From the NCBI RefSeq assembly GCF_026625745.1, contig NZ_CP113061.1, positions 558,001-622,000 on the forward strand: a stretch of DNA of 64,000 bases, written 5' to 3'. The DNA comes from Asticcacaulis sp. SL142. Lineage in GTDB: Bacteria; Pseudomonadota; Alphaproteobacteria; Caulobacterales; Caulobacteraceae. Below, one piece after another: positions 2,299 through 33,997 of the stretch (position 1 is its first letter; each line of letters starts with the position of its first letter). The translations under genes were made by a program, and so were the position numbers. The notes under the pieces were generated by a model. The model was not told where the DNA came from, ran no database searches, and saw only the letters and a program-made list of their open reading frames with translations.

Positions 2299-2913
2299 TC
2301 ACCAGGTTGTGGGGTCGGGCGTGTAGTGGGGTCTGATATCTATGACCTTCATTGTGGCGCTTCGGGCGGCCTCTATGCCTTCGTCAGTATCTTCGAAGGC
2401 CTGAATATGTTCCGGGAGGATTTTAAGATTTTCGGCGGCGGCGAGGTATAGATCAGGATGAGGTTTACCCTTGCCTGTATCCTCTATGGTGACGACGGTC
2501 TCAAATCGGTCTAACAGTCCTATGGCGTTCAGGGAGGCTGTCACCATGGTCCTTTGACCACCAGATGCGACACCCAGCGGATATATGCCGTGAAAGCGGT
2601 GGACGAGTTCGGTTGTAACCGTAATCGGGCGGACGGAGCCAATATGTGTCAGGAACAATTCTGCGGTGCGACTGGCGATATAAATATCATTCAGACGCAT
2701 TTTGTAATGAGCCTCTAATTCAGTCACGAGTTGATACCTGGATAAGCCTAGTCTTGCGCCATAAAAACCAGTTTCAAAATTTATATTGTAAATCTCGAGC
2801 GCCTCTTTAAAAGCGCGGTAATGGGCGGGGAAGGTGTCGGCCAAAGTACCGTCACAATCAAAAATCAGGGCTTTGATCCCGGCGTCGGGGTGAAACTGAA
2901 GCGCTTTATGCAT
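2299..2913 (-). CDS. HAD superfamily (subfamily IA) phosphatase
   Basis: A 204-residue haloacid-dehalogenase-type hydrolase of the beta-phosphoglucomutase/phosphoglycolate phosphatase group. Motif I is FDCDGTLAD, with nucleophile Asp19 and acid/base Asp21. Motif II Thr/Ser lies in the GVASGG segment. Motif III is the Lys in GKGKPHPDLY, and motif IV is FEDTDEGIEAA. An alpha-helical cap lies between motifs I and II. The substrate cannot be told from sequence. Start ATG at 2913. It converges with pdxH, abutting its stop codon. Confidence 0.85.
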   Translation of the reverse strand: MHKALQFHPDAGIKALIFDCDGTLADTFPAHYRAFKEALEIYNINFETGFYGARLGLSRYQLVTELEAHYKMRLNDIYIASRTAELFLTHIGSVRPITVTTELVHRFHGIYPLGVASGGQRTMVTASLNAIGLLDRFETVVTIEDTGKGKPHPDLYLAAAENLKILPEHIQAFEDTDEGIEAARSATMKVIDIRPHYTPDPTTW

Positions 2914-2969
2914 GCTCTCTATATGTATTCAGGCCTGCTCTGGGTCAATTCGGCTGTGGGTAAAAAGAT

Positions 2970-17850: not shown

Positions 17851-18545
17851 TGGTACTTGCGCAACAGGCCGACCAAACGTCCCTGAACCGCTACCTCATC
17901 GGTATTATATATGCGGGTTTTATAGGCGGGATTTGCGGCCTCCAGCGCAATCGAAGCGCCCTTTTTCCTTAGACGCTTTAAAGTCGCGGTATCGCCGTCA
18001 ACAAGTGCCACGACAATTTCGCCAGATTGCGCTGTATCGGTCTTTTTGATGATGACATAGTCACCGTTTAAAATACCGGCATTGATCATGGAGTCGCCTT
18101 CGATCTCCAGAATATAATGCTCACCGGCCCCCAGCATCGCTTCCGGTATGCGTAAACGGTCACGCTCTTGCCCCATAGCTTCGATAGGCACACCGGCGGC
18201 AATTTTACCGAGCAATGGCAGTTCACGACCGTCTTCCAGAACAGGTTTCGCTGCGGCTTGAGGTTTTGAGCCCTCGACCACCTGCGGGACAAAATTCTGG
18301 CGTCCTTTAGGTGGTGCGGCGGTTGTCGCCTGATCGGGAAGTTTAATGACCTCAAGGGCTCTGGCCCGATGCGCCAACCTGCGAATGAAGCCGCGTTCTT
18401 CAAGCGCTGTGATCAGGCGGTGGATGCCTGACTTGGACGCCAAGTCCAACGCTTCTTTCATTTCATCAAAAGAAGGCGAAACACCACTTTCCTTAATGCG
18501 TTCATGAATGAACATTAAAAGTTCGCGTTGTTTGGTCGTCAGCAT
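17847..18545 (-). CDS. lexA: LexA SOS repressor
   Basis: Transcriptional repressor of the DNA-damage regulon, inactivated by RecA-stimulated self-cleavage. From ATG 18545 the protein has 232 residues. A winged-helix DNA-binding domain covers 1-70, opening [20 protein letters not shown]. The Ala-Gly cleavage bond lies at about 117-118 (KIAAGVP). Catalytic Ser152 is in EGDSMINAG and Lys190 in DTATLKRL. A longer in-frame start at 18605 would add 20 Cys/His/Arg-rich residues and is unlikely. Two GTTC-N7-GTTC operators lie 50-90 bp upstream, indicating autoregulation. Confidence 0.97.
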
Positions 18546-18594
18546 ATACCACCTGTGGGTTCTGTGTTCACCCAGACCGCAATGGCATCGGCGT

Positions 18595-18609
18595 GAACAA
18601 GTCATGAAC
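18595..18609 (-). promoter_or_regulatory. SOS box 1 upstream of lexA
   Basis: The plus strand reads GAAC-AAGTCAT-GAAC, so the minus strand carries GTTC-N7-GTTC, the alphaproteobacterial LexA-binding consensus. It lies 50 bp upstream of the lexA ATG. Confidence 0.9.
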
Positions 18610-18620
18610 TTATAACAGAT

Positions 18621-18635
18621 GTTCTGTAAGTGTTC
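18621..18635 (+). promoter_or_regulatory. SOS box 2 upstream of lexA
   Basis: The plus strand reads GTTC-TGTAAGT-GTTC, a second exact GTTC-N7-GTTC site in the opposite orientation to box 1. The two centres are 26 bp apart, within the roughly 100 bp between lexA and the end of trpC. Confidence 0.88.
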
Positions 18636-18645
18636 CAGGTTAATG

Positions 18646-19440
18646 TCAAGCTAACGATAAAAGTTTTTTTGCGGCCAGTGTTACATCGGTTTGACGCATG
18701 AGGCTTTCCCCGACCAACATGGCGAAGGCACCTGTGGCTTCAAGGCGTGTGACATCATCGACCGTAAATATACCGCTTTCGGCCACCAGTATATGCTCCG
18801 GTGACACCATTCGGGATAAAACCTCAGTGGTTGATATATCAACTTCAAAATTTCTTAAATTTCTATTATTTACACCGATAAGATTAGACTTAAGTTTAAG
18901 GGCACGGCTCATCTCATGGGCGTCATGAACCTCAACCAAGGCATCCATTTTATAGTGATGTGCCGCCGCTATCAGATCGGCCGCCAGAGCGTCATCCACC
19001 ATCGCCATGATGACTAAAATAGCGTCGGCCCCGTAACTGCGGGATTCGGCGACCTGCCAGGCATCGACGAGAAATTCTTTGCGTATACAGGGCAGGGTTA
19101 CAGCCGCTCTGGCAGCAATAAAATGCGATTCGTCACCCATAAAGCTGGGGGCATCCGTCAAAATCGATAAGCAGGACGCGCCACCTGCAGCATAGGCGCG
19201 TGCCAATTCAGGCGGATTGAAATCTTCACGGATCAAGCCTTTTGACGGGCTGGCTTTCTTGATTTCCGCAATAAGACTTAAACTACCGGGACGTTTATCA
19301 GCCATTAAGGCGGTCGCAAACTCGCGGGGCGCGCCTGCGCCTTGAATAAGGGTTTCGATGTCATCTAAAGACATATCCCGGCGGCGGCGTGCTACCTCTT
19401 CGCGTTTATAGTCAGCAATTTTGGCAAGAATATCAGTCAT
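18646..19440 (-). CDS. trpC: Indole-3-glycerol-phosphate synthase
   Basis: Tryptophan biosynthesis: closes CdRP to indole-3-glycerol phosphate. A 264-residue single TIM-barrel enzyme with no TrpF fusion. It has [15 protein letters not shown] (catalytic Lys and phosphate region), [37 protein letters not shown] and LVAESGIFT, in the standard order. One base separates its ATG from the trpD stop codon, so the trpG-trpD-trpC genes are translated from one message. Confidence 0.97.
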
Positions 19441-19441
19441 A

Positions 19442-20461
19442 TTAAGCTTGATTATTCGTAATTTGAATTAACCGCTGCAAAGCGGTTTTGGCTTTGCCGG
19501 AATCGAGAACTGACGCGGCAAGATCGACACCATCCCTTAGGGTTTCAACCTTGTCGGCGACCAGAAACGCCGCTGCGGCATTGAGACACACTATATCGCG
19601 ATAAGGGCCTTTAGCCCCGTTCAGGAGATCAGACAGGGCCGCCGCATTCACGTCCGGCGTACCGCCTGTGATATCCGCCAAAGAAGCGCGCGGTAGACCG
19701 ACGGCTTCTGGTGTGATGGTGAACAGCCGCACCTGACCGTCGCGCCATTCAGCGACTTCGGTTTCACCGGTTGTCGTCAGTTCATCAAGGCCCTCTCCAT
19801 GCACAGACCAAGCTTTTTCGGCGCCCAGCATACCCAGCGCTTTGGCAATGGGCTCAACGAATCGAGGTGCTGGAACGCCTACAACCTGACGTTTGGCCCC
19901 TGCCGGGTTGGTCAATGGGCCGAGCAAGTTGAAAATAGTGCGAAAACCAAGTTGCTGCCTTACCGGGGCAACATGTTTCATGGCACCGTGATGGGCGGGC
20001 GCAAACAGGAAGCATATTCCGGCTTCGTCGAGGGCCTGTTTCTGCTGCTCAATCGATGCGTCAATATTGACACCAAGCGCTGCTAAAACGTCTGCGGTGC
20101 CGGATTTGGAAGTCACGGCACGATTGCCATGCTTGGCAACCTTGAGGCCACCACCCGCGGCCACAAAACCGGTCGCGGTCGATATATTAAGTGTATGGAG
20201 GCCATCGCCGCCCGTGCCGCAAACATCGATGACGTCGTAGTCGTGCTCTAACCGTTTGGCTGCGGCGCGCATGGCGCGGGCACAGGCGGCAATCTCTCCA
20301 ACGGTTTCGCCGCGCAAGCGTATCGCGGTAACGGCCGCGGCGATTTGGGCCGGGGTCGGTTCTCCGCGCAGACAGGCTGAAAAGAAGGTCTCAGCGTCAT
20401 CTTCTGATAAGGTCGCGCCATCGGCCAATTTTGACAATAAAGGTTTAAAGCTATCAGACAT
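19442..20461 (-). CDS. trpD: Anthranilate phosphoribosyltransferase
   Basis: Transfers phosphoribosyl from PRPP to anthranilate. 339 residues with the PRPP-binding motif [38 protein letters not shown] and [20 protein letters not shown], all diagnostic of TrpD. The start overlaps the trpG stop by eight bases, implying translational coupling. Middle gene of the trpGDC cluster. Confidence 0.97.
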
Positions 20462-21047
20462 AGAGATTGCTGCTGGGGATGCCCGCCATATCGAGGAAGT
20501 TGGCCAAAATCTGATGGCCGCCTTCGGTGGCTATGGATTCCGGGTGAAACTGAACACCGTGAATGGGGCGCGTCTTATGTTGAACGCCCATAATTTCCCC
20601 ATCTTCGGTCCAGGCGGTAACTTCGAGTTCCGTGGGCAAGGTTTCACGCTTTACCGCGAGCGAATGGTAACGTGTCGCTGTGAAAGGATTGGGCAGGTCT
20701 TTGAAAAGACCTATATTTTTGTGATGTATTTGACTGGTTTTGCCATGCATCAGAGCTTTGGCGCGAATGACATCGCCGCCGAATGCCTGACCGATCGCCT
20801 GATGGCCGAGGCAAACGCCCAGTATAGGTAAGTCTTCGGGGGCCGCCCTTAGAAGCGGCAGGCATATACCCGCTTGATCCGGTGCACAGGGGCCGGGCGA
20901 GAGCAATATGGCCTTAGGCCCCATAGCCAAAGCATCCTGAACGCTCAAAGCATCATTGCGAAACACTTTGGTTTCTGCCCCAAGTTCAGCCAGATAGTGA
21001 ACAAGGTTATAGGTAAAGCTGTCGTAATTATCGATAACCAGGATCAT
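20454..21047 (-). CDS. trpG: Anthranilate synthase component II (glutamine amidotransferase)
   Basis: Supplies ammonia from glutamine to the TrpE subunit for anthranilate synthesis. A 197-residue class I amidotransferase with [14 protein letters not shown] at the N-terminus, nucleophile Cys79 in [15 protein letters not shown], and the His-Glu pair in [13 protein letters not shown]. It is the first gene of this cluster. Its usual partner trpE is not beside it: the next gene upstream is on the other strand and is followed by mobile DNA. Confidence 0.96.
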
Positions 21048-21174
21048 TCATAAGGCTCCGGGCAAACTGTTGTCATCTACATAGGGCTTAAGGTCGATTG
21101 CGCCAAGTGATAACCGATACAGTTCAGTCATTTCATGTTTAAATGTCAGGAATTGACTTTGATTCGGATGTCTC

Positions 21175-21552
21175 ATGACTGACAATATGACACTGACAGA
21201 TAATGTGGCGGACGCCAGACTGAAACGGGCGCGTAAACTCTTATCCCCGCAGCCCCAAAAGCCAGTGTCGCTAAAATCAGCGTTACTTTCATCTATCGCT
21301 TTTGCCGCAGCGGCCCTCATGTTGGCGGCAGCTATTATCATGGGACCGGGGTGGGAGCGTGCACCCAGTTTGGTGCCGAATGAGGCTTCGCCCATTAACG
21401 ATAACCAAGTGAGTGCTAACCCCAAAGCCATGATGGTTCAGGCACCCCCAGGTGGATTTGAACTCTCGGCCAGCCCCTTGTCAATTGAAGGTGTGAATGA
21501 AGCTGTGCCGTTGAGCGAAGAGGAACTGGTTGCTGGCGAAGACAAAAAGTAA
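21175..21552 (+). CDS. Hypothetical single-pass membrane protein
   Basis: 125 residues with a basic, hydrophilic N-terminus (DARLKRARKLLSPQPQ), one transmembrane helix at about 37-58 (ALLSSIAFAAAALMLAAAII) and a Pro/Glu-rich tail outside the membrane. It is divergent from trpG. Its stop codon at 21550-21552 lies only about five bases before the first base of recognisable mobile-element sequence, so it is probably the last chromosomal gene on this side. I do not recognise a family. Confidence 0.55.
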   Translation: MTDNMTLTDNVADARLKRARKLLSPQPQKPVSLKSALLSSIAFAAAALMLAAAIIMGPGWERAPSLVPNEASPINDNQVSANPKAMMVQAPPGGFELSASPLSIEGVNEAVPLSEEELVAGEDKK

Positions 21553-21556
21553 GGGG

Positions 21557-21841
21557 CTGTCGTAGATATTTATTTACCGCTGGAACAAGTTGCAAAAGAA
21601 ATGGGGTTGGGGGCCTATCCCGCTATCGGCCTGGCCGCCGCCCGCGAAGCTGCGCGAGCTTCCCTCAAATTGCTGAAGGACAGGAATAATCCGCAAGACC
21701 CACTCGCGGTACGCCGGTTAGAACAAGAGCCCGACATGAAAAACCGGCCTTTGGTGTTTTTTGCCGAACAGATGATTTCCGACATTGAACTGCAATGGCG
21801 AAACCCAAAGCATCGGTCGCAATGCCGCTTTGCGCTTCGCA
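21557..21841 (+). pseudogene. Truncated second copy of a P4-type integrase (internal fragment)
   Basis: The DNA closely matches 24400-24685 within the intact integrase. Shared protein segments are FIYRWNKLQK, YPAIGLA-ARE-AR, LKLLKDRNNPQDPLAVRR and SDIELQWRNPKHR. It begins inside the gene (no start), carries an in-frame TAG where the intact copy has Trp, and has lost one A in the run after the Leu-Gln codons, which shifts the frame. Homology stops at about 21841, where sequence related to a capsid gene begins. It is a dead fragment of a sister element. Confidence 0.85.
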
Positions 21842-22206
21842 CTCGTAAAGGACTCGACGGGATTACGCCGATCAACGCCATGCCGCGGTTCCTGCTGATC
21901 TCTCCTGATCTGGAAACTAATGCGGACGACATCATGTCGATCTTGCATGATGCTACGGTCGATTTTGCGCCGGTACTGTTGCGTAATCTATCGGTGTTGG
22001 TCGATCCGCGCCTGCCGACGGGTAGCTGGTACATCTTCGCTGATCCGGCTGCGCTGCCGATCCTGGAATACGCCTACCTGTCAAGCGCGCAAGGGCCGCA
22101 AATAGCCAGCCGCGAAGGTTGGGATACCTTGGGAATGGAGTTCCGCGTCGTTCTCGACTTTGGTGCGGGCGCCGTTGATTGGCGCGGCGCATATAAGGGC
22201 GGCTGA
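21842..22206 (+). pseudogene. C-terminal fragment of a phage prohead protease / major capsid fusion protein
   Basis: An open frame running from 21601 joins integrase residues to roughly 115 residues that resemble the end of HK97-type protease-capsid fusion proteins: RFLLISPDLETNADDIMS, then PTGSWYIFADPAALPILEYAY, QGPQIASREGWDTLGMEF and VVLDFGAGAVDWRGAYKGG. The catalytic protease part and most of the capsid fold are missing. Any product from the chimeric frame would be an accident of the deletion. Followed two bases later by the gpW-like gene. Confidence 0.75.
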
Positions 22207-22208
22207 TC

Positions 22209-22424
22209 ATGGCAAGCCTGACCGACCTTACCAAGTGGCGTGATCAGCTTCTGGAAGCCCGATTGTCGGGCGTCCGGCGTGTTCGGGACCAGAGCGGCGA
22301 TGAAATCGAATACAAGTCCGATTCAGAATTAGCCCGTGCTTTGTCGGCCGCTGAAGCTGCGATCGCTGCCGCAGCCCGTCCCACCCCCAACACAATTCTT
22401 TTTAGGACTTTCAAAGGAGTCTAA
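22209..22424 (+). CDS. gpW-like phage head-tail joining protein
   Basis: 71 residues, ATG at 22209. Short helical protein opening with SLTDLTKWRDQLLEARLSGVR and containing a GDEIEYKSDSELARAL segment. This pattern (helix, arginine-rich turn, short beta hairpin with EYKSDSEL, helix) matches gpW-family head-completion proteins. Tight spacing after the capsid fragment and a one-base overlap with the next gene fit a head-gene operon. Confidence 0.65.
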   Translation: MASLTDLTKWRDQLLEARLSGVRRVRDQSGDEIEYKSDSELARALSAAEAAIAAAARPTPNTILFRTFKGV

Positions 22425-22756
22425 TGATGAAAAACCATGTTCAGAAAGGTGACACGCTGACAATTCCGGCGCCGGCCGCCGTTCTCTCTGGTGCCGTCGT
22501 AGTAGCCGGCCAGATAATCGGCGTAGCCAATGGCGATGCAGCTTCAGGTTCGCCGGTTGATGTCGATGTAACGGGCGTGTTCAGCCTCTCCAAAGTTGCC
22601 GCACTGGCAATCGATGTCGGTGACCTGGTTTATTGGGATGCTGCCCCCAAGCTAGTGACCAAAACGGCTGTCTCCAATAAAAAGTTGGGCTATGCGGTTA
22701 CGGCTGCGTCAAATCCATCTGCGACCGTCAACGTCCGATTGGTGCCGGTAGTCTAA
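22424..22756 (+). CDS. DUF2190 family phage capsid-associated protein
   Basis: 110 residues. The segments GDTLTIPAPAAVLSGAVVVA, GQIIGVANGDAASGSPVDV, GVFSLSKVAALAIDVGDLVY and WDAAPKLVTKT are characteristic of DUF2190 proteins. These are small beta-rich proteins encoded beside phage capsid genes and often proposed as capsid decoration. Preceded by AAGGAG about eight bases before the first ATG. Complete in itself, though the rest of the head module is gone. Confidence 0.8.
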   Translation: MMKNHVQKGDTLTIPAPAAVLSGAVVVAGQIIGVANGDAASGSPVDVDVTGVFSLSKVAALAIDVGDLVYWDAAPKLVTKTAVSNKKLGYAVTAASNPSATVNVRLVPVV

Positions 22757-22760
22757 GCAT

Positions 22761-23009
22761 ATGGTAGCCTCAGCCCCTTCTATTCGCGCCGTTGCAACGC
22801 CCACACGGCGCGGCTTATCGCGAGAGGAAGCGGCGGGCTATATCGGTGTTTCCCCTTCGACATTTGACAAATTGGTAGCTGAAGGCAAGATGCCGATACC
22901 AAAACGGATTAGCACTCGTAAAATTTGGGATGTCCGCGCTTTAGATTTAGCGTTTGATGGCCTTGATGCTGAATCGACAGACGCTGAAAATCTGTGGGAT
23001 AACATCTAA
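22761..23009 (+). CDS. AlpA/excisionase-like helix-turn-helix protein
   Basis: 82 residues with a MerR/AlpA-like winged HTH at about 18-65: LSREEAAGYIGVSPSTFDKL, then MPIPKRISTRKIWDVRALD. Proteins of this kind act as directionality factors or repressors beside phage integrases. Its last base is shared with the start of the integrase pseudogene, a normal coupling for excisionase-integrase pairs. Confidence 0.7.
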   Translation: MVASAPSIRAVATPTRRGLSREEAAGYIGVSPSTFDKLVAEGKMPIPKRISTRKIWDVRALDLAFDGLDAESTDAENLWDNI

Positions 23010-24037
23010 TGACCAAAATTACGTTGGCCTATGTGCATCGGTTTTGCGACCGGCACGGTAAGATGCGCCACTATTTTCGGCGTCCTGGGTTCAAGCAAAT
23101 TTCTCTTCCTGGCCTCCCTGGATCGGCGGAGTTCATGACTGCCTACCAGTCGGCATTGGGCGGTGTTGTCCCAACTATTGTTGTGGGAGCAGGGCGAACC
23201 CCGTGGCTCAATCGGCAAGTTGATAATTAGCTGGTATCAATCCTGTGATTTTAAAGGGTTTCGAGAACAAACAAAAAAGACCTATCGAGGTATTGCTGAG
23301 AATTTTCGCAACGAACATGGTGACAAACCGGTAGCGCAGTTACAGCCTCATCACGTCCGCAAAATTCTTGCTAAGAAATCTGATACACCTGCGGCCGCAA
23401 ACAACCTACTTAAGGTTCTTCGGTCTATAATGAAGCACGCTGTTGACGATAACTGGCGTACCGACGACCCTACTTTTGGGGTTCGGCCCTTAAAAAATAG
23501 AACGGACGGATTTCATACTTGGACTGAAAAAGAAATTACGCAATTTTCAATCGTTTTACCCAATTAGCTCGCGCGCCAGATTAGCCTTTGATCTGCTATT
23601 ATATACAGGGCAACGGAGGTCAGAAGTAATTCGTATGGGGCCGACAACACGTTTCTGATGGGCTCATCGCCGTAACGCAACAAAAGACCGGAACATCCCT
23701 TTCGATCCCAATTCATCCGCAGCTTAAGGCCACACTGGATGGTACGAAGCTTGATAACCTTACATTCGTGATGACTGCGCAGGGCCAAGGATTTACCGCG
23801 TCTGGCTTTGGAAACTGGTTTCGTAAAATCTGCCAAGAAGCTGGATTGCCTAAACAATGCGCGGCGCACGGTCTCCGCAAAGCGGCAGCCCGCCGATTAG
23901 CTGAAGCCGGTTGCACGACGAAACAAATCGCCTCAGTTACAGGACACACCACGCTTAGGGAAATTGAGCGATACATGGTGGCGGCTGAACAGAAACAGTT
24001 GGCCCGTTCAGCAATGGACAAAATGACAATAAAATAA
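23009..24037 (+). pseudogene. Phage tyrosine integrase with about three frameshifts
   Basis: Homology to tyrosine recombinases runs through four pieces in different frames. The N-terminal arm-binding part is at 23009 to about 23200 (TLAYVHRFCDRHGKMRHYF). The core-binding region is at about 23190-23550 (QTKKTYRGIAENFRNEHGD, VRKILAKKSDTPAAANN). The catalytic Arg segment is at 23540-23640 (LAFDLLLYTGQRRSEVIRMG). The end, from about 23650, carries HGLRKAAARRLAEAG and TGHTTLREIERYM with the HxxR, His and Tyr residues. All catalytic residues survive, so the decay is recent. The enzyme cannot be made without frame correction. Confidence 0.85.
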
Positions 24038-24130: not shown

Positions 24131-24145
24131 TGGCGGGCAGAGTGA
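24131..24145. repeat. Left attachment-site core (copy of tRNA-Ser 3' end)
   Basis: TGGCGGGCAGAGTGA matches TGGCGGACAGAGTGA at 33908-33922 with one substitution. The match begins exactly at the complement of the tRNA CCA end. Confidence 0.6.
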
Positions 24146-24265
24146 CCCCTTAAAGTGCGTCCAAAGGTGCCCGTAGGCGTACGAGAGCCTGTTGATTTAT
24201 TTGAGAAAAATGATTCAATTTATCCGAATTGGTTCACCCCAGTTCCCACCCATCTGGCGTTGCCG

Positions 24266-24286
24266 CTGGGGTCACTGCTGGGGTCA
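24266..24286 (+). promoter_or_regulatory. Paired putative integrase arm-binding sites, left end
   Basis: Two exact CTGGGGTCA copies at 24266-24274 and 24278-24286, 12 bp apart, just upstream of the integrase start. An inverted partial copy (CACCCCAG) sits at 24235-24242. The same doublet occurs near the right end at 33835-33855. Confidence 0.55.
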
Positions 24287-24303
24287 GGTTCGGGAAACAG
24301 CAA

Positions 24304-25497
24304 ATGGCCACACTGACAGCAAAACGAGTAGACACGCACAATGCGCCTGGCAGGTATTCGGACGGGAGCAACCTATATCTTCAGGTCACGAAGAGCGGTT
24401 CAAAGTCGTGGCTATTTATTTACCGCTGGAACAAATTGCAAAAAGAAATGGGGTTGGGGCCCTATCCCGCTATCGGTCTGGCCGACGCCCGCGAAGCGGC
24501 GCGGGATGCACTCAAATTGCTCAAAGACAGGAACAATCCGCAGGACCCATTAGCGGTGCGCCGGGCAGAACAAGACGCCCGACGTGAGAAACCAGCCTTC
24601 GGTGTATTTGCCGAACAGATGCTTTCCGACATTGAGCTGCAATGGCGGAACCCAAAGCACCGGGCGCAATGGCGCTTTAGCCTGCGCGAATATGGCAAAC
24701 CCATATGGGATATGCCTGTCAATGACATCGATACGCAGGATATCCTCCGGGTGTTAAAACCAATCTGGCAGACCATACCGGAGACAGCTTCGCGTGTGAG
24801 AGGAAGGGTCGAGAGGGTTCTTGACGCCGCTGCCGCACAGGGACTGCGTGCCGGTGCAAACCCCGCCCGTTGGAAAGGCCACCTCGATCACCTGTTGCCG
24901 AAGCGACATAAGCTTACACGCGGCCACCATTCCGCTATGCCGTACGATCAGGTGCCTAAGTTTGTCACGGAGTTACGCCAGCGCGATAATATGTCAGCGC
25001 TGGCTCTGGAGTTCCTCATTCTGTGTGCGGCTCGTTCAGGTGAGGTTTTAGGGATGACCTGGGAAGAAGTGGACGTTGTCGCAAAAGTCTGGACTGTGCC
25101 CGCCAATCGCATGAAGGCTGGGCGGGAACATAGGGTTCCTCTAACGGATAGAGCCGTGGCCGTACTAAACTCCGTCCGCCCACTGTCACTAAGTCTTTCC
25201 GATAAGGGACAGACGCAAGCGACAGGCTTCGTTTTCCGCGGATTAAAAATGGGGCCTTTGTCGGTAATGTCTCTCACCATGCAAATGCGCCGTATGGAAA
25301 AAGGCCATTTCACGCCCCATGGTTTTCGGTCGGCGTTCCGTGACTGGTGTGGTGAAGAAACTGATTTCGCACGTGAGATTGCCGAGGCCGCGCTGGCGCA
25401 TACCGTCGGAGACATGACAGAGCGTGCCTACCGGCGTGGAGACGCTCTTGAAAAACGACGGAAGCTTATGGATGCGTGGTCAGACTTTATCGCATGA
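24304..25497 (+). CDS. P4-type tyrosine integrase (intact)
   Basis: A site-specific recombinase of about 397 residues. The N-terminal DUF4102 arm-binding domain has SDGSNLYLQVTKSGSKSWLF and GLGPYPAIGLADAREAARDA. A core-binding domain follows at about 100-190. The catalytic domain carries Arg in CAARSGEVLGMTW, HGFRSAFRDWCGE, His in LAHTVGD and Tyr in MTERAYRRGDALEKRR. I prefer ATG 24304 (opens MATLTAKRV) over the upstream TTG at 24229, which would read through the paired CTGGGGTCA motifs. The frame is intact, unlike the neighbouring copy at 21.6 kb. Confidence 0.92.
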   Translation: MATLTAKRVDTHNAPGRYSDGSNLYLQVTKSGSKSWLFIYRWNKLQKEMGLGPYPAIGLADAREAARDALKLLKDRNNPQDPLAVRRAEQDARREKPAFGVFAEQMLSDIELQWRNPKHRAQWRFSLREYGKPIWDMPVNDIDTQDILRVLKPIWQTIPETASRVRGRVERVLDAAAAQGLRAGANPARWKGHLDHLLPKRHKLTRGHHSAMPYDQVPKFVTELRQRDNMSALALEFLILCAARSGEVLGMTWEEVDVVAKVWTVPANRMKAGREHRVPLTDRAVAVLNSVRPLSLSLSDKGQTQATGFVFRGLKMGPLSVMSLTMQMRRMEKGHFTPHGFRSAFRDWCGEETDFAREIAEAALAHTVGDMTERAYRRGDALEKRRKLMDAWSDFIA

Positions 25498-25630
25498 CAA
25501 TTGCGGGCCATTCAAACCGAAAACACACTTATGGAAATGCGTGGACATTGATGAATGGCAATCGGCCGGTTGTGGCCCTTAGAGGAAGCGATGAAAGTTT
25601 ATCAATTCCAGCAAAGCGGACATCTTGCGA

Positions 25631-28018
25631 TTAACTGATCAGAAGTGCGTATGATGTAAACGAAAAGACCTTGCCCGCAGTCAGAGTGATTTGACCTGAG
25701 CTGTCAATTGCCTTTGATAAGTTATAGAATTCACTCAAAGGCTGATCCTTGGGCGGGACAATACGCAAGGTGACCGTGTTTTTGGACTTGAGCGAGAGCC
25801 CCGTGACCTTATGGTTGCGCCAGGCCATATCGACGGTCAGTCCGCCTCTGGCGCGGATGCCTTTGATGTGGCCGTCCTTCCAGTTCGTCGGCAGGGCGGG
25901 CAGCAGGCGCAACTCACCGTCATGGCTTTGAAGCAACATTTCCGCGATGGCGGCGGTCGCACCCAGATTGCCGTCGATCTGAAAAATCGGATTGTCCGAC
26001 GGACTGTACAGGTCAAGCAGGCTTTCGCTGGTCGAATGGGCCAGGAGTTTATGCAACATGCCAAAGGCATCATCGCCCTGCGCCAGACGGGCATAGAACA
26101 TGGCCAGCCACGCGCTGCTCCAGCCGGTATGGCCGCCGCCGTGCTTCAACCGCTCGGCAATGGTCTTGCGCGCCGCCTCGGCAAGGTCAGGGGTGCGGCG
26201 GACATCCATCTCCAGTCCGGGATAAAGTCCGAACAATTGCGAGATGTGCCGGTGGCCGGGCTCATGCTCAATCAGCGGCTCGCTCCATTCCATGACGCGT
26301 CCGTCAGCCCCGATCCGTAGGGGGGCCAGCCGCTCAAGCGCGGTCTCACACGACTGCGCCAGCTCCGGGTCAACGCCGCACAAATGGGCGGCTTGTGAGG
26401 TGCAAAACAGGACTGTGCGCGCCAGAGACTGCGCCATAGCGCAGCCCATGTCGACATAGCCGGGCGTGCCATCACTCTGAACGTAGCTGTTTTCCGGCGA
26501 ACTGGCCGGGCCCGACACTAGCTTCCCCGTGCGCGGGTCCTCTACCAGATAAGACAGGGTGAAGCGGGCGCACGCCGTGAAAAAGGGCAAGGCGCGCGTT
26601 TGCAGGAAGGCCTTATCCAGTGTGTAGAGATAGTGCTCCCAGTAGTGGAGGCACAGCCACGCCAAGCCGTCTGGCCAAAGGCCATACTGAATTCTTCCAT
26701 CAAGTGCGGTATGCCCCCAGGGATTGGTAGTATAGTGAGCTACAGCCCCTTCACAGCCATAGGCGATACGCGCCGTAGCCTCGCCATAGGGCAAGAGGCG
26801 CTCAGCAAAATCAAACAGGCTATGGTGAAGATGGCCAATGCCGCAGACCTCTGCGGGCCAGAAGTTCATGTTGATGTTGATATTGATATGGTAGTCCGCA
26901 CTCCACGGCGGCGAAAAACCGTCGGCCCATAGTCCTTGCAGATTTGGCGGCAGGGAGCCCGGGCGGGATGAACTGATCAGCAGGTAGCGACCGAAATTGA
27001 AATAACTCTCGACCAGAGCCGGTGAGGGGGCGGCATCTTTTGCGGCCGCGATCTGAGACGGTGTGAGCCGCGTATCGTCAGTAATGCCCAGCGACAGGTC
27101 AACGGCATTAAACAGGGCGGCATGGTCGCGAGCTTGAGTTGCGGCGAGGCGCTTCCACGATTTACCCTTTGTTTCGGCCAGAGCGGCCTGTGCGGTGGAT
27201 AAGGGATCGGCACCAAACAGGTCGGTCGCCGCGGTCAGACTAAGCAAGACCCCCTTTGCGCCGGTAACGCGCACACCGTCCGCTGTCATTTCAGCCTTCC
27301 CGCCCTCCGTCTCCCAGCTTAAAACGGACGCGAAGCGGGTGCCGTAAGGCTTGGGTTGGCCGGTCAGAACAATCTGCCCATTTTGGGCAGAGATCGTGGC
27401 GTCCTGACGGCGTGTCAGCTTGATTGTAACGCTCAGGCCTTCGGGAGCGGTGGTTTCCAGCCGCACCAGCAGAACCTTATCAGGATAGGAGGCCAGAACG
27501 GTGCGTTTATAGACGGCTTTGCCGATGCGGTAGCTGACTCGGGCCTGGGCCGCTTTCATATCCAGTTCGCGGCGATAATCTTCGACGTTTTCAGCGTGCT
27601 CGAAGCGCAGGTGAAGGTCGCCCAGCATCTGATAGGAGCCAAAATCGTCACCGTTCATCGGCTGCATCATGCGCGCCTGAGCGAGTTTATTGGCATTTAT
27701 GCGATCACCGTTAAACAACAGCCGGCGCACTTCCGGCAAGGCATCGCGTGTAGTCACCGGATTGTCTTCGACCGTCCGGCCTGACCAGATTTCGATGTGG
27801 TTAAGCTGCAAGCGCTCTTCGCGCACCCCGCCGAACACCATAGCCCCCAGACGGCCATTGCCAACGGGCAGGGCTTCGATCCAGCGCGCCGCCGGTTGAT
27901 CAAAGCGCAGGGTCTTGGCGTCCTCATGTGCGGATTTCGCGGCGGCTTGGGCTAGCCCTGGCAGCATAAACAGTGCCGACGTGCCCGCGATAACATTCCG
28001 GCGTGTTGGTTCCGACAT
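25631..28018 (-). CDS. Glycoside hydrolase family 95 (alpha-L-fucosidase type)
   Basis: A 795-residue exported glycosidase. The N-terminus has a twin-arginine-like signal (TRRNVIAGTSALFMLPGLAQA). The GH95 pattern then follows: WIEALPVGNGRLGAMVFGG, LNHIEIWSGRT, YQMLGDLHL in the N-terminal beta domain. In the (alpha/alpha)6 barrel are PPNLQGLWADG, ININMNFWPAE, ASSPENSYV and PIFQIDGNLGATAAIAEML, which include the Asn pair and the acidic residues of the family. The usual activity is hydrolysis of alpha-1,2-L-fucosides; some members act on L-galactosides. It is island cargo and the only sugar enzyme there. The TonB receptor at 6 kb is not linked. Confidence 0.9.
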   Translation of the reverse strand: MSEPTRRNVIAGTSALFMLPGLAQAAAKSAHEDAKTLRFDQPAARWIEALPVGNGRLGAMVFGGVREERLQLNHIEIWSGRTVEDNPVTTRDALPEVRRLLFNGDRINANKLAQARMMQPMNGDDFGSYQMLGDLHLRFEHAENVEDYRRELDMKAAQARVSYRIGKAVYKRTVLASYPDKVLLVRLETTAPEGLSVTIKLTRRQDATISAQNGQIVLTGQPKPYGTRFASVLSWETEGGKAEMTADGVRVTGAKGVLLSLTAATDLFGADPLSTAQAALAETKGKSWKRLAATQARDHAALFNAVDLSLGITDDTRLTPSQIAAAKDAAPSPALVESYFNFGRYLLISSSRPGSLPPNLQGLWADGFSPPWSADYHINININMNFWPAEVCGIGHLHHSLFDFAERLLPYGEATARIAYGCEGAVAHYTTNPWGHTALDGRIQYGLWPDGLAWLCLHYWEHYLYTLDKAFLQTRALPFFTACARFTLSYLVEDPRTGKLVSGPASSPENSYVQSDGTPGYVDMGCAMAQSLARTVLFCTSQAAHLCGVDPELAQSCETALERLAPLRIGADGRVMEWSEPLIEHEPGHRHISQLFGLYPGLEMDVRRTPDLAEAARKTIAERLKHGGGHTGWSSAWLAMFYARLAQGDDAFGMLHKLLAHSTSESLLDLYSPSDNPIFQIDGNLGATAAIAEMLLQSHDGELRLLPALPTNWKDGHIKGIRARGGLTVDMAWRNHKVTGLSLKSKNTVTLRIVPPKDQPLSEFYNLSKAIDSSGQITLTAGKVFSFTSYALLIS

Positions 28019-28587
28019 CTCTACCCTCAGATATTCTGATTTATAATATAATTATTGCGCGATTAGGGTGATGCTGTCAATTGCGGCCAATGCACGTCGC
28101 TCCCATTCGTCTTGGGCGATTTGCTCGCTGCTAACCTAATAAAGCCATTGAGTGAGAATTCGCTGCATCTCATCAAGTCTCGCGTTCGGATCGTCAATGA
28201 CGAATGGATCAGTCTTCCGCTGGTAAATTTGTGGTTCAATTTGAACTATTTATATGGATTAGAGAACGAGCTGCTGAGATCAGGCTCCTGAACAATGAGT
28301 CGAATGCGGTTACAAAATTGACAGGAGAATTCCTATGACTGAAACAACAAAATTTGACGCCAGCGCGGTTGCTACTGAGTCGCCTTTTTTTAAATTCTCT
28401 CCGGTGCTGGAGAAGTTCTTCTAGAGCATAAGTCATATATAATGGATATGCTTCCGACGGTTCCGGATGAATTCTATAATCATGTGAAACAACTTGCTGA
28501 AAATAAGATCATTCTTTAAATCTGATGATCATATATCTTATTCTGCTATCCACAGCGTTGTGAGCGATGGCCGCAATTTGAAAGTTA
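28019..28587. other. Degraded intergenic region left of the IS element
   Basis: No intact gene. A frame from ATG 28335 encodes 29 residues (opening TETTKFDASAVATESPFF) and ends in TAG at 28422-28424. Further coding-like stretches in other frames continue to the IS edge. This looks like the start of a broken gene of unknown family, perhaps one the IS entered. The first 300 bp hold the GH95 promoter region. Confidence 0.4.
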
Positions 28588-28653
28588 TGAGGTGGTCCCC
28601 GAAAATCGGACACGGTTCTAAGCTTGTGTCGTTCTCTACGAAGGGCGAGACAT

Positions 28654-28938
28654 ATGACAGGCAAACGTACGCAGTATTCGGGTGATTTCAAAGCGAAAGT
28701 GGCGCTGGAAGCGATCAAGGGCGAGATGACCTTGGCTCAACTGGCGGCCAAACACGGCGTTCACCAGACGCTGATCAATAGCCGGAAGCGCCAGGCCATC
28801 GAAAACATGGCGACGGCTTTTTCGGGCAAGGCCGAACAGGCAGATGCCAGCCGGGAAGCGGAGGTCGAGAAGCTTCACGCCAAGATCGGCCAGTTGCTGG
28901 TGGAGCGGGATTTTTTGCGCAAAGCCTCCGGTCGATGA
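28654..28938 (+). CDS. IS3-family transposase OrfA
   Basis: 94 residues. HTH of the IS3 OrfA/IS911 type (YSGDFKAKVALEAIKGEMTL, AQLAAKHGVHQTLI) and a C-terminal leucine-zipper-like helix (EVEKLHAKIGQLLVERDFL). It binds the IS ends and normally combines with OrfB through ribosomal frameshifting. The stop codon overlaps the orfB start as ATGA at 28935-28938, and a T6 run at about 28912-28917 precedes the overlap. Confidence 0.92.
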   Translation: MTGKRTQYSGDFKAKVALEAIKGEMTLAQLAAKHGVHQTLINSRKRQAIENMATAFSGKAEQADASREAEVEKLHAKIGQLLVERDFLRKASGR

Positions 28939-29788
28939 GTGCTGAGCGGAGGCGAGAGATGATCGATCCCAAACATACGACCTTGTCGGTGAAACGCCAG
29001 TGCCAGTTGGTCTCAATAAGCCGGTCGTGTTTCTACGGTGGCAGGCAGGGCGAAAGTCCGTTGAACCTCGCTCTGATGAGGCGGATCGACAAGCAGTTCA
29101 TGGAGACACCGTTTTACGGCAGTCGTCAGATGGCCCGGCATCTCAAACGCCAAGGCTACGACGTCGGCCGCAAGCGTGTAAGGCGCCTGATGGCCAGGAT
29201 GGGCTTGCAGGCGATCTACCAGAAGTGCAAAAGACGGTACGCCAGCCGGAGCATCGCACCTACCCATATCTGCTTCGGGGATTGGTCATCGACCAACCCA
29301 ATCAGTTCTGGTGCGCCGACATAACCTCCATACCCATGCGTCGCGGCTTCCTGTATCTCGTCGCCATCATGGACTGGTTCAGCCGCAAAGTCTTGGCCTG
29401 GCGGCTGTCGAACACAATGGATGTCGAGTTCTGCATCGCCGCCTTGGTGGAAGCGATGGCGAAGCACGGCCGGCCGGACATCTTCAACACTGACCAGGGT
29501 AGCCAGTTCACCAGTCCGAGGTTCACAGAGCTTTTCCGGGACGCCAACGTCCGCCTGTCCATGGACGGACGCGGACGCTGGCTCGACAATGTCTTTATCG
29601 AACGGCTGTGGCGCTCGCTGAAATACGAGTGCATCTATCTCCATGCCTTCGAGACCGGATCGGAGGCCCGGCTTGGCATCGGAAGATGGATCGAATATTA
29701 CAATCATCACCGGCCCCACTCGACACTCGCAGGACAGACACCCAACGAGATTTATCTGGGATCGGGAATGACGAGGAAAGCGGCATAA
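28935..29788 (+). pseudogene. IS3-family transposase OrfB, frameshifted
   Basis: The integrase-type DDE catalytic subunit. The first frame gives SISRSCFYGGRQGESPLN, MARHLKRQGYDVGRKRVRRL and MGLQAIYQK. From about 29225-29245 the homology moves to another frame: EHRTYPYLLRGLVIDQPNQF, WCADIT (first Asp), NTDQGSQFTS (second Asp), FIERLWRSLKYE (Glu) and YNHHRPHSTLAGQTPNE. One missing or extra base breaks the protein between its HTH_21 and catalytic domains, so this copy is probably unable to move by itself. Confidence 0.88.
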
Positions 29789-30022
29789 TCACACCACAGA
29801 CACAAGCTTAATTCAGCCGCAAACCTGTCCGTGAAACGGGGACCACCTCAGTTATGCTATCTTCTGGTGCGTAAATACCTGTATCGAGAAGCAACTTGGA
29901 CCGAGTAAAAACGCTAGCGCACCCCAGCAACACGGTTGAGGGTAACTGAGGTGTCAGGTGATGGGGTGGACGGCTCCCGCTCCCGGCGTCGAACCATACT
30001 CCCCATCCCGTGGGCGACTTCT

Positions 30023-30556
30023 TCAATACCCTGCTAGATGCGGCCCTTGCTCGCACGCTGCGGCTGCAACAAGGCCGTTTAGCCAGTCTTGGTGACCATT
30101 AATCATAGGATTGGGCTTGGCCAGCGCCAACTCACGTGCGGGCGCGCCATTTTGGGTCTCTTGCGTCAGAATGCGCACACGACCGTGTGACAGATCCTCA
30201 ATCAGCCACGCATGGTGAACGTCCAGCCTGTCCGCTGCGCCCTCTTCACCTGCCCAACCATGCCAGGCGATGCGGGCAGGTTGGCCTTGAACCGGCGGCA
30301 CGCATTCGACGACGCGCGCGGGAACGGGAAAGCCGAACGTGCGGAAGAAAAAGCTATCTCCCATGGTAAGCTCGGGACCTCTGCCATCTTCAATATGCAC
30401 ATCTGATGCGTTCGAATAATAGGTCGGCCAGAGCGCAGGCTGGATAAGATACGGCCAAATGTCTGCTGCAGTAAGGCCGGCAACGATCACTTCGTTCGAT
30501 ACGTAATTGTCGGTGAAGCCGGGAACATAGCCCGCAGGCCAAAGTATGTCTGTCAA
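30023..30556 (-). CDS. SRPBCC (START-fold) family protein
   Basis: About 177 residues from a TTG at 30556 with GGAG at 30565-30568; longer in-frame starts reach 30673. Segments NYVSNEVIVAGLTAADIWPY, GDSFFFRTFGFPVPARVVEC and ARIAWHGWAG, then HAWLIEDLSHGRVRILTQE, fit a ligand-binding SRPBCC beta-grip with a long C-terminal helix (WLNGLVAAAA). Such proteins bind small hydrophobic ligands or act as cyclases; no catalytic claim can be made. It is divergent from a LysR regulator 110 bp away, the usual layout for a regulator and its target. Confidence 0.7.
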   Translation of the reverse strand: MTDILWPAGYVPGFTDNYVSNEVIVAGLTAADIWPYLIQPALWPTYYSNASDVHIEDGRGPELTMGDSFFFRTFGFPVPARVVECVPPVQGQPARIAWHGWAGEEGAADRLDVHHAWLIEDLSHGRVRILTQETQNGAPARELALAKPNPMINGHQDWLNGLVAAAACEQGPHLAGY

Positions 30557-30666
30557 GGTGGTTACTCCAATGGTGAAAAGCTTTGGAAAGCCATTAATAA
30601 AGTGCTGGAAAACTACAAAGCGTTCTGTCATAAGTCGAATTTTAAAAATGTATTTCTGATATTGAC

Positions 30667-31566
30667 GTGGCAAATATCAACTCGCTTGACCTCAATTTGC
30701 TCAAGGCTTTGGATGCTCTGATCGAGACTCGATCGGTAACCCAGGCCGCTTCACGATTGGGGCTAAGTCAGCCTGCTGTGAGTGGAGCCCTTGCGAGGCT
30801 ACGCGATGTCTTTGGCGATCCGCTCTTCGTCCGAGCTCAGCGCGGTCTTCTGCCGACACCGCGTGCACTGGAGATCGCAGAGCCACTCCGAAAAATGTTG
30901 ACAGAGGTTCAGGCACTGGTGCAGCCACATGCGTTCGTGCCGTCCGAAGCGCAGGTCACTTTTCGGATAGCCGCCACTGACTATGCACAAACGGCGATAG
31001 TACTGCCGCTTCTGAACGTGTTGGAACGGCAAGCACCGGGGATCAGGCTATCGGTCATCCCGGTGGATAACCGTTTCGCTGAAAGCCTGGCAGAGGGTAG
31101 GCTGGATATTGCACTGGTGACCCCCGAAATGTCGCCAGACACCCTTCGGACGCGAAAGCTTTTCGACGAAAACTATGTATGCGTTCTGCGCAAAGGCCAT
31201 CCCAACGCCGATGACCTTGATCTTGAGGCTTTCTGTGCCTTGAATCATGCCATCATGTCGCACGATGGAACTCAGTTCAGAGGGGCGACGGATACTGCCC
31301 TTGACCGGATGGGGTATAGTCGTCGGGTTGTCGCTACGCTTCCGAGTTTTTTAGTGGTTATTAACCTTGTGCGTGTTTCCGATACAATTGCTCTTATCCC
31401 CAGTCGTCTGACCTATGGAAGTGACGACATCGTTGTTCGCGAACCGCCTCTGTCGATCGAAGGATTTTCCAAAATTGCAGCTTGGCACGAAAGAATGCAT
31501 CAGGATCAGGCGCACGCATGGTTGAGGGCGCGGTTATCAGAGGCTGCATATGTGCCTGCACAATAG
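30667..31566 (+). CDS. LysR-family transcriptional regulator
   Basis: 299 residues from a GTG at 30667. N-terminal winged HTH: LDLNLLKALDALIETRSVTQ and AASRLGLSQPAVSGALARL, followed by GDPLFVRAQRGLLPTPRA, typical of LysR proteins in the NodD/LinR-like group. The periplasmic-binding-protein-like effector domain runs from about 90 to the end. It probably controls the divergent SRPBCC gene, binding the 110-bp spacer. The effector is unknown. No clear ribosome-binding site precedes the start. Confidence 0.9.
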   Translation: MANINSLDLNLLKALDALIETRSVTQAASRLGLSQPAVSGALARLRDVFGDPLFVRAQRGLLPTPRALEIAEPLRKMLTEVQALVQPHAFVPSEAQVTFRIAATDYAQTAIVLPLLNVLERQAPGIRLSVIPVDNRFAESLAEGRLDIALVTPEMSPDTLRTRKLFDENYVCVLRKGHPNADDLDLEAFCALNHAIMSHDGTQFRGATDTALDRMGYSRRVVATLPSFLVVINLVRVSDTIALIPSRLTYGSDDIVVREPPLSIEGFSKIAAWHERMHQDQAHAWLRARLSEAAYVPAQ

Positions 31567-32263
31567 ACTTCGATACACACGCGCGCTGATCTTACTTTGA
31601 AAGTCTTCGATCTGACCCTGGCCGATGCGAGTTCTCCTGCTGCGCGGTCAGTGCCCGCGACGGATTTCAGGTCCTTCAGAGGGCTGGTTTTTGCGGGCGC
31701 GAAGGTCTGTTCGGATGGTTAGGGTCGCGCCTCGGCCACCAAGCTATGTCGCAGTGTAATGATCAAAGCCGCTTTCGGCGCTGATCACGGAATCCTTGCT
31801 GGCGGCCCGTTTTCATGGGGTTGGGGATGAGGTACTGACCTAGGCCGTAACTTCCGCTTTAGGGAACACTTCTCACGCGCCGACAAAATGGCCGCTCCGG
31901 GCGCTCACGGGCCTAGATTGGAAAATTGAGTAAATTGGCGAAGGAGGGAGGGAAGGCCAGATAAAAGCAGTGCCTCCTTGATCGGCTAAGTCATTGTCTG
32001 CACATCGCTTTTTATGGAGACTCGGAAGAGTGCCAAGAGGCGATATCGCTTTAAGCGCTTGAAATTTCGAGTGATTTTAAGCCTCCTAGCCGCAATGGTG
32101 CAGAAAGCCTCTCCAGAGTGCCCTCGCGCTGGGCGCTCGCCCTGGCCTTTTTGGGGGCCGGGCGAGCGCTCCACCTGCGGTCAAACGGCGGGTTCCGGGG
32201 GTGTAACGAGTATCTGCTAATCTCCGAAGCAACGGTATCTTGGCTCCCGACCAAGGAGCCGAC
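31567..32263. other. 700-bp island region without a recognisable gene
   Basis: Both strands are rich in stops or lack family-like protein segments. The only structure I see is a long GC-rich hairpin at 32131-32171 and an AAGGAG ribosome-binding site at 32253-32258 for the next gene. It may be remnant DNA from earlier cargo. Confidence 0.5.
32131..32171. repeat. GC-rich hairpin upstream of the HTH gene
   Basis: Left arm GGGCGCTCGCCC then T and GGCC; loop TTTTTGGG; right arm GGCC then GGGCGAGCGCTC. This gives about 16 paired bases with one bulged T and one G-T pair. No T tract follows on the plus strand, so it is not a standard terminator. Confidence 0.6.
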
Positions 32264-32557
32264 ATGCCTTTCAACGCCACAGACAAAATCGCATATCGTA
32301 TTGATGAAGCCGTGAAGGCATCGGGCCTTGGTCGCTCGTTCTTGTATGAGAAAATGGCCGAGGGCAAACTACGGTCTGTCAAAGTTGGTGGCCGACGTCT
32401 GATCCTGCGCAATGACCTGGTCGATTTCCTCAATCAGGGAGGCGAACCAAAGCCGTCAGCGCAAGCCCCCTCGGTAGTGGTTCTAGAGGCTAGAATCGGG
32501 TCGACGGCCATTCGACGACCAGCGCAGTTAGAATTGCCCCTCAAGCCCCGTAGATAG
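32264..32557 (+). CDS. Excisionase-family helix-turn-helix protein
   Basis: 97 residues from ATG 32264, with AAGGAG five bases upstream. DNA-binding domain KIAYRIDEAVKASGLGRSFL, then YEKMAEGKLRSVKVGGRRLI and LRNDLVDFLNQ, the SAM/excisionase (MerR-like) winged HTH. A Pro/Arg-rich tail of about 45 residues follows. It may be the directionality factor for the island integrase or a regulator of the MNT-HEPN gene, which starts about 110 bp downstream. Confidence 0.8.
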   Translation: MPFNATDKIAYRIDEAVKASGLGRSFLYEKMAEGKLRSVKVGGRRLILRNDLVDFLNQGGEPKPSAQAPSVVVLEARIGSTAIRRPAQLELPLKPRR

Positions 32558-32665
32558 GGCCACATAGCCTCATGACTAAGTCTTGGCCAGGTCGTACTAT
32601 TTGAAAGCGGTAGCCCACACCCGGCTCAGGTGTTAGACTCTGGTATCAACGCTTCGGGATTCTCC

Positions 32666-33580
32666 ATGCTGACGGATCAGCTTTCTCACTTGCCAGACAC
32701 TAAACGCCGCGAACTTGAACGTGTGGTGCAGGTGCTGTTCGACGAGTTCGAGGACGCCATCAAGTCAAAGCTATCTGATAAGAAGAAACTGGGCCGCATC
32801 CTCAAGGTCATATTGTTCGGCTCTTATGCCCGTGGCGACTGGGTTGAAGACCGACTGTCGGGTTACCGCTCCGACTACGATCTTCTGATCGTCGTCAACA
32901 GTCACCAGTTCACCGACCTGCATGAATATTGGGCCAAGGCTGACGGGCATTTCATACGAGAACTAACCGTCACCCAGCATATCAAGACACCCGTGAACTT
33001 CATCGTTCACAGTCTTGAAGACGTCAATGATCAGTTGGCCAAAGGCAGGCCCTTCTTCTCGGACATCGCCCGCGATGGCATCATGTTATATGAGGCACCG
33101 GGCCATCCCTTGGCTAAGTCAAAGCCCCTGACGGATGATGAGATCAAAGCCGAAGCGCAGGGTTATTTTGAACAGTGGTTTATACGAGCAGAGCAATTTC
33201 TGTTCACAGCTCAAGACCAATTGGACCGCGACTGGCGAAGCATGTCTGCATTCAATTTCCACCAGGCGACTGAGTCACTTTACCACTGCGCCCTACTTGT
33301 CCTCACGCTGTATAGCCCCAAGAGCCACCGCATCACTATGCTAAGGTCTCAAGCAGAGGCTCTGGACGACCGCTTGAAGGTTATCTGGCCCAGTGAGACC
33401 AAACTGCACAGGCAAGCCTTTGATCGCCTCCGGAGGGCCTATATCGAGGCCCGCTATTCAGCGGAATACACCGTATCCATCGAGGAGCTAAATTGGCTGA
33501 ACGAACGAATTGCCGTGCTTCGGGATACGGTCAAGACGATTTGCAGGGAACGCCTTGCACCTCAGCAGCCCACGATATAG
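32666..33580 (+). CDS. Fused MNT nucleotidyltransferase - HEPN protein
   Basis: About 304 residues (317 codons if the GTG at 32630 is used). The first half is a minimal nucleotidyltransferase: LFGSYARGDW, then SDYDLLIVV, giving the GS and DxD catalytic residues. The second half, from about residue 150, is a HEPN helical domain of the PF05168 type: FNFHQATESLYHCALLVLTL and RRAYIEARYSAEYT. MNT and HEPN are usually two genes of a toxin-antitoxin pair in which MNT adenylylates HEPN. Here they are one chain. I see no R-x4-6-H RNase motif at the expected place. Island cargo, probably defence or element-maintenance related. Confidence 0.82.
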   Translation: MLTDQLSHLPDTKRRELERVVQVLFDEFEDAIKSKLSDKKKLGRILKVILFGSYARGDWVEDRLSGYRSDYDLLIVVNSHQFTDLHEYWAKADGHFIRELTVTQHIKTPVNFIVHSLEDVNDQLAKGRPFFSDIARDGIMLYEAPGHPLAKSKPLTDDEIKAEAQGYFEQWFIRAEQFLFTAQDQLDRDWRSMSAFNFHQATESLYHCALLVLTLYSPKSHRITMLRSQAEALDDRLKVIWPSETKLHRQAFDRLRRAYIEARYSAEYTVSIEELNWLNERIAVLRDTVKTICRERLAPQQPTI

Positions 33581-33834
33581 CGGTGCAGATTGGACAATAG
33601 GACTGCCTCGGAAGACGTACGGACAAGTCTTTGATCCTGGCATCGCGGAGAAGGCGACTAAAGGGTTGGTCGATAACGACTCATCGCTGTTGATATCGAA
33701 ATACATCTGAAAAATACCCGCATGTACCACGAGAGAGTGTGTTTTTGATGAGAACAGTGCAATGAATCCGTTGCATTAATGGCACGCGGTGTCCAAAAGC
33801 ATCCGGAAAAGTCCATCTGAAACCATAAAAAACG

Positions 33835-33855
33835 CTGGGGTCAATCCTGGGGTTT
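33835..33855 (+). promoter_or_regulatory. Paired putative integrase arm-binding sites, right end
   Basis: CTGGGGTCA at 33835-33843 and CTGGGGTTT at 33847-33855, with the same 12-bp period as the doublet at 24266-24286. They lie about 55 bp inside the tRNA-Ser end of the island. The stretch 33581-33834 before them holds no gene that I can support. Confidence 0.55.
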
Positions 33856-33907
33856 TGATTGCAGCGTTAAAAAATGACGAGCAAAAATAAATACTTATGC
33901 GCGGGAG

Positions 33908-33997
33908 TGGCGGACAGAGTGAGATTCGAACTCACGGTAGGCTTCCACCTACGGCGGTTTTCAAGACCGCTGCCTTAAACCACTCGGCCATCTGTCC
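33908..33997 (-). tRNA. tRNA-Ser (anticodon UGA)
   Basis: 90 nt including encoded CCA. Acceptor stem GGACAGA / TCTGTCC with discriminator G, D-arm GGCCGAGTGG, anticodon loop CTTGAAA with TGA, a long variable arm typical of tRNA-Ser, and T-arm GTGAGTTCGAATCTCAC. Its 3' end faces the island and supplies the proposed attachment core at 33908-33922. Confidence 0.97.

Follow-up and report, generated by a model that had tools for sequence, protein, structure and literature searches.

ICEMlSymR7A of Mesorhizobium, one of the closest described systems, targets tRNA-Phe, whereas tRNA-Ser is the target at the locus analysed here. Its integrase, IntS, acts on a 283-bp attP with several arm sites of one consensus, all of which are required for efficient integration (PMC11963761). 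Like the island that we describe as element A, ICEMlSymR7A is alphaproteobacterial and has repeated arm-type sites beside its core, but it is a 502-kb conjugative element with five such sites, of consensus TGKTGGTATC (PMC11963761). KplE1 (CPS-53), a defective prophage of 10.2 kb at argW in E. coli, has a duplicated 16-base core and both core-type and arm-type integrase sites (PMC2951348). Unlike element A, it has its integrase gene beside the tRNA gene, an arm motif with TAAA and another tRNA as its target (PMC2951348). DUF4102 is already known as an arm-binding domain (PMC8138268). Tandem arrays of islands at one tRNA gene are also known, and Islander lists 125 tandems among 3919 islands (PMC4383910). 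The ends of Islander islands are a tRNA gene and a displaced 3' fragment (PMC4383910), as in element A; compared with the Islander tandems, the older member of the array described here is broken, and an inversion has parted the array from its original outer flank.

Our data indicate that element A is very probably a real integrative genomic island, one of an ordinary type that has a P4-type (DUF4102) integrase and lies stacked on element B, which is older. In the literature searched, which left most subscription papers outside, no earlier report was found of this island or of the 12-bp arm-site rule set out below.

Results

The window, that is the whole stretch of 64,000 nucleotides that was analysed, sits in a single-contig chromosome of 3.7 Mb. 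On the plus strand the last 15 bases of tRNA-Ser(UGA) read TGGCGGACAGAGTGA (33908-33922), and the copy at 24131-24145 matches 14 of the 15, so that the repeat with one mismatch given in the original prediction agrees with the sequence. No third tRNA-Ser(UGA) core with up to two mismatches was found in the 124 kb searched. Element A is a 9.8-kb island at 24131-33922 (Table 1), where an intact tRNA gene and a 3' fragment in the same orientation, with one mismatch, flank an integrase gene, as is required of a tRNA island.

Table 1. Features of element A, element B and the left inversion breakpoint (positions in the window)
Feature	Position	Strand	Remark
IS1595-type inverted-repeat end GGGGCTGTCGTAGAT, left inversion breakpoint	21553..21567	+	trp-side chromosome ends at ~21552
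Fragment of another P4-type integrase, 70% identical over residues 44-131	21568..21850	+	
Element B: capsid C-terminus, head-tail adaptor, head decoration protein, HTH protein	21829..23009	+	
Element B: broken second tyrosine integrase, in pieces	23009..24037	+	
Left core, tRNA-Ser 3' end with one mismatch	24131..24145	+	far att of element A
Left putative arm doublet, two exact CTGGGGTCA units 12 bp apart	24266..24286	+	first GGG 137 bp from core start
P4-type (DUF4102) tyrosine integrase, 397 aa, intact	24304..25497	+	end away from tRNA
Cargo: glycoside hydrolase family 95 (GH95)	25631..28018	-	
Cargo: two-ORF transposase (HTH and rve domains)	28624..29788	+	
Cargo: ORF without Pfam, NCBIfam or PADLOC match	30023..30673	-	
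Cargo: LysR-type regulator	30667..31566	+	
Excisionase-family DNA-binding protein, candidate directionality factor	32240..32557	+	TIGR01764, 31.6 bits, cut-off 28.8
Nucleotidyltransferase-HEPN fusion protein	32630..33580	+	
Right putative arm doublet, CTGGGGTCA then CTGGGGTTT, 12 bp apart	33835..33855	+	
tRNA-Ser(UGA), target gene	33908..33997	-	last 15 bases (33908-33922) form the right core

Matched doublets with 12-bp spacing had been predicted at both ends. The spacing and three exact units of CTGGGGTCA (24266, 24278 and 33835) were found as predicted; the right doublet is inexact because its second unit, at 33847, differs from CTGGGGTCA at two of nine bases, the sole inexact unit of the four. 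A further exact copy lies at 48940 on the opposite strand, so that the window has 4 copies where 0.42 would be expected; none of 100 shuffles had that many. Matched putative arm units on both sides of the core make up the two-arm attP layout of lambda-type integrases.

The integrase begins with an ATG at 24304, just inside the left doublet as claimed, and its product has the domains of a P4-type integrase (DUF4102, IntSXT subgroup). PF13356, PF22022 and PF00589 scored above cut-off, corresponding to the arm-binding, central and catalytic domains, and the N-domain of a CP4-like integrase is among the solved structures that match the protein. The excisionase-family ORF has a relative in seven of eight other elements (see below), and its product probably acts as an excisionase. 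A single-chain nucleotidyltransferase-HEPN protein occurs in five of these eight, beside the excisionase gene in two and in opposite orientation in three, and the protein of element A weakly matches the candidate defence model PDC-S09. Comparison of the eight main ORFs of element A with Pfam found no relaxase or conjugation genes, and a bare transfer origin might still be present; the same comparison found no phage structural families, and such genes sit in element B.

Close relatives of the integrase are carried by 126 of 390 genomes of the family, with identities of 83-96% in other genomes of the genus. Eight other elements were read. Five have an integrase within this range (G013, G004, two in G019, and G006) and three are remoter (G015, 65%; a Hyphomicrobium MAG, 55%; G314, 55%). 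In six of the eight, the far end is occupied by a tRNA-Ser gene (GGA in five, CGA in one) whose relative orientation is that seen in element A; for G015 and G314 no tRNA gene was found within the 20 kb fetched. In all six tRNA-bearing elements the integrase is at the end away from the tRNA, and the left core equals the end of the element's own tRNA over 14 bases (15 in G006). All eight elements have the left doublet, which in G006 lies 888 bp before the integrase. Five of the six have a right doublet that begins 72-73 bp from the tRNA, and G013 retains one unit; this comparison is the strongest case against chance. Two parts of element A are conserved in G013 and G004, the first at 24131-25569 with 92-93% DNA identity and the second from 31888 to ~33.84 kb with 78-87%. 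For the genes between them (GH95, transposase, LysR, unnamed ORF) neither gave a match, and G013 carries different ORFs at the corresponding place. This pattern suggests a single integration module whose cargo can be exchanged. In the closest element, the integrase (96% identity, G004:C86:59072-60259) contains one internal TAG stop.

Empty tRNA-Ser(GGA) sites were found for two of these relatives. The flanks of the G013 element match one site in G002 (L130) at 1777-2867 and 2830-3734, with a 38-bp overlap at the core, and the flanks of the G004 element match the same site at 2470-2867 and 2830-3744, where the left match is short (398 bp). The tRNA-Ser(GGA) site of G009 is also empty and agrees with that of G002, its left match being just ~130 bp long. 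In the host itself, the tRNA-Ser(GGA) site was unusable as a comparator because the match is restricted to the right flank. No empty tRNA-Ser(UGA) site was seen in G013, G002 or G009. The insert is absent from these three genomes, so 24.1-33.9 kb is not contiguous chromosome there, and in none of them does 24130 join directly to about 33923, as had been expected of empty relatives. No relative examined shows this junction because the DNA left of 24131 is itself an older mobile element.

That older element, the phage-derived remnant element B, spans ~21.83-24.04 kb, and the left core begins 93 bp after the stop of its last integrase piece. Among 29 relatives of the C-terminal piece of this integrase, 26 adjoin a tRNA gene, which is tRNA-Ser in 18, and in 17 of these 18 the tRNA end is 28-96 bp past the stop. 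By this likeness, 24131-24145 would also be the tRNA-side att of element B. Of the 29 integrases, 13 have a relative of the HTH protein nearby; capsid, adaptor and decoration genes were found beside none of them in flanks of up to ~1.5 kb. In element B these three genes directly adjoin the excisionase-like HTH gene and the broken integrase.

Further change to the locus is seen in the comparison with G013. Positions 17737-21540 are collinear, 33906-99536 are inverted (these coordinates run past the window), and collinearity resumes from 100207. The inverted segment of 65.6 kb starts at window position 33906 and ends 35.5 kb beyond the window (G000:C1 ~591906-657536), and the original post-tRNA chromosome is now ~66 kb away. 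In G013 the sequences that flank the left breakpoint are just 28 bp apart, and the G013 order is common to G002 and G009, the latter with a local rearrangement near the tRNA; G004 follows this order at the left junction, the sole junction seen there. Both breakpoints carry CTGTCGTAGAT, the end of an insertion sequence (IS) whose complete genomic copies encode an IS1595-type transposase, and the right breakpoint retains ~510 bp of the IS1595-type IS. From the inversion comparison and the IS ends, ~21.55-33.9 kb is therefore all inserted DNA. The IS probably caused the inversion. An inversion made by the integrase was rejected, given the IS1595 ends at the breakpoints and the absence of a core copy at the right one.

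The layout of element A was then compared with that at other integrases. The 75 integrase loci comprised sets of 30 and 40 and five from a further set of 12, in which L064-L067 (genomes G004, G019 and G023, already included) and L069, L071 and L075 (short upstream DNA) were left out. A doublet was scored where a 9-base unit recurred after 12 bp with 8 or more matches, up to 160 bp upstream of the integrase. The prediction that doublets stand beside related integrases was borne out, with 12-bp doublets in 51 of the 75 upstream regions (mean 0.80 and maximum 4 in 100 dinucleotide shuffles) and none in the other 24. The next best period, 10 bp, was found in 12 of 75. After removal of similar upstream regions, 44 of 68 had the 12-bp doublet.

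At the 31 loci where it could be placed, the distance from core to first GGG was 136-139 bp in 21, 159-160 bp in seven, 146-148 bp in two and 266 bp in one (L090), where the script chose a farther core. Steps of this size are close to one helical turn, which suggests that the units stay on one face of the helix. Both integrase-tRNA layouts occur, because 10 of the 75 integrases have a tRNA gene up to 620 bp upstream; nine of these are tRNA-Ser.

The motifs vary by clade (CTGGGGTCA, GTGGGGCCC, TAGGGACTG and others). An anchored motif was available at 49 of the 75 loci, and 48 entered the correlation of motif divergence with domain divergence (L078 omitted; the motif of L184 looks misplaced). 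The partial correlation was 0.19 for the arm domain, reached by 0 of 999 permutations, and 0.16 for the catalytic domain, a permutation-free figure. As these two values are nearly alike, specificity of motif divergence for the arm domain is unsupported.

A free phage genome carries an unsplit attP. Four of five matching phage records were read (Alfacinha1 omitted), together with one of 70 plasmid records; two distant viral-contig loci were not used. Units spaced by 12 bp stand on both sides of a tRNA-end-like core in three of the four phage records, with two and three units in Caulobacter phage DMCA and two and two in the Acidovorax phages Acica and Alfacinha3. Alfacinha3 was below the script threshold, and its units were located by motif. 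The far-side units of DMCA and Acica are 72-73 and 84-85 bp from the core end. DMCA, Acica and Alfacinha3 thus resemble element A in their related integrases (45.5, 43.0 and 44.6% identity, respectively), two-sided 12-bp units and tRNA-end-like core, but they are complete phages with other arm motifs and a core reversed relative to the integrase. The Microcystis phage and the Paracoccus plasmid integrase record have no doublet.

Discussion

The original prediction of att-type ends with paired arm repeats, at first a guess from a single sequence, has become a layout tested in islands and phages, and related elements, empty sister-tRNA sites and free phage attP regions agree with it. The integrase would recombine the copy of the tRNA-Ser end borne by attP with the end of the chromosomal tRNA-Ser(UGA), and the tRNA gene would stay whole. 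We propose that the N-terminal domain of the integrase binds two tandem arm units, 12 bp apart, on each side of the core, which makes the doublets putative integrase-binding sites. The excisionase-family protein would steer excision. Element A may be mobile at present.

The doublets might instead be promoter or operator sites of the integrase gene and not recombination arm sites. The left doublet is just upstream of the integrase start, and in KplE1 and ICEMlSymR7A the integrase represses itself and the promoter of its gene overlaps arm sites (PMC2951348, PMC11963761); such self-repression, acting through arm sites at attL, is already known (PMC2951348). The right doublet, however, is ~8 kb from the integrase and beside the tRNA gene, and three phages have a second doublet across the core. 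We regard this explanation as unlikely; promoter and arm roles are compatible with each other.

The assignment of the left end to element A could also be questioned, in that the 24131 core might belong only to element B, element A being a fragment lodged in some other way and its left end no true att. The distance from the broken integrase of element B to the core, within the range of its relatives, would suit this reading, but in the relatives of element A the core is the same and so is its distance from integrase and arms, with no element B adjoining it in the DNA read, and two of these relatives were compared with empty sites. A single core could serve both elements, and the separate-lodging explanation is very improbable. 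Chance repeats in ordinary chromosomal DNA, which a short core with one mismatch and an inexact right doublet might suggest, have next to no probability, as the whole stretch is absent from relatives, the geometry is conserved and the counts exceed those of shuffles; we hold them refuted by the G013, G002 and G009 comparisons and the related elements.

For an island with its own att ends, as we read element A, the simplest history is that element B would have sat at the tRNA gene first and that element A entered between the tRNA and B. On this history the 24131 boundary would be shared by A and B. The tRNA array would later have been carried in the 65.6-kb inversion. The locus is an example of how a simple check of synteny can miss an island's original flank where elements are stacked and a segment is inverted.

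Of the new points, the arm-site rule is the most useful, and it is the part that deserves a test. It may be stated as a grammar of P4-type integrases, for which we see about an even chance, with two (sometimes three) mostly G-rich units per arm at an exact spacing of 12 bp, ~137, 147 or 160 bp from a tRNA-end core, and motifs that diverge by clade. If this is true, the grammar could let several islands use one tRNA gene without cross-excision, and att sites and element ends could be read from sequence alone, since the layout recurs in sister islands and in some free phages. The 12-bp rule would then be a simple finder of attP arm sites and element ends beside a common integrase class.

Other traces were seen at tRNA-Ser(UGA) genes. 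In G013 a second perfect tRNA-Ser(UGA) 3' end lies ~140 bp past the intact gene (L038 ~2400; G013:C1:2904899), perhaps left behind by an element since lost. Several genomes of the genus (G021, G020, G007 and G014) have partial copies of the tRNA-Ser(UGA) 5' half in tandem upstream of the intact gene, and those of G021 are ~177 bp apart (L019 ~3050-3491).
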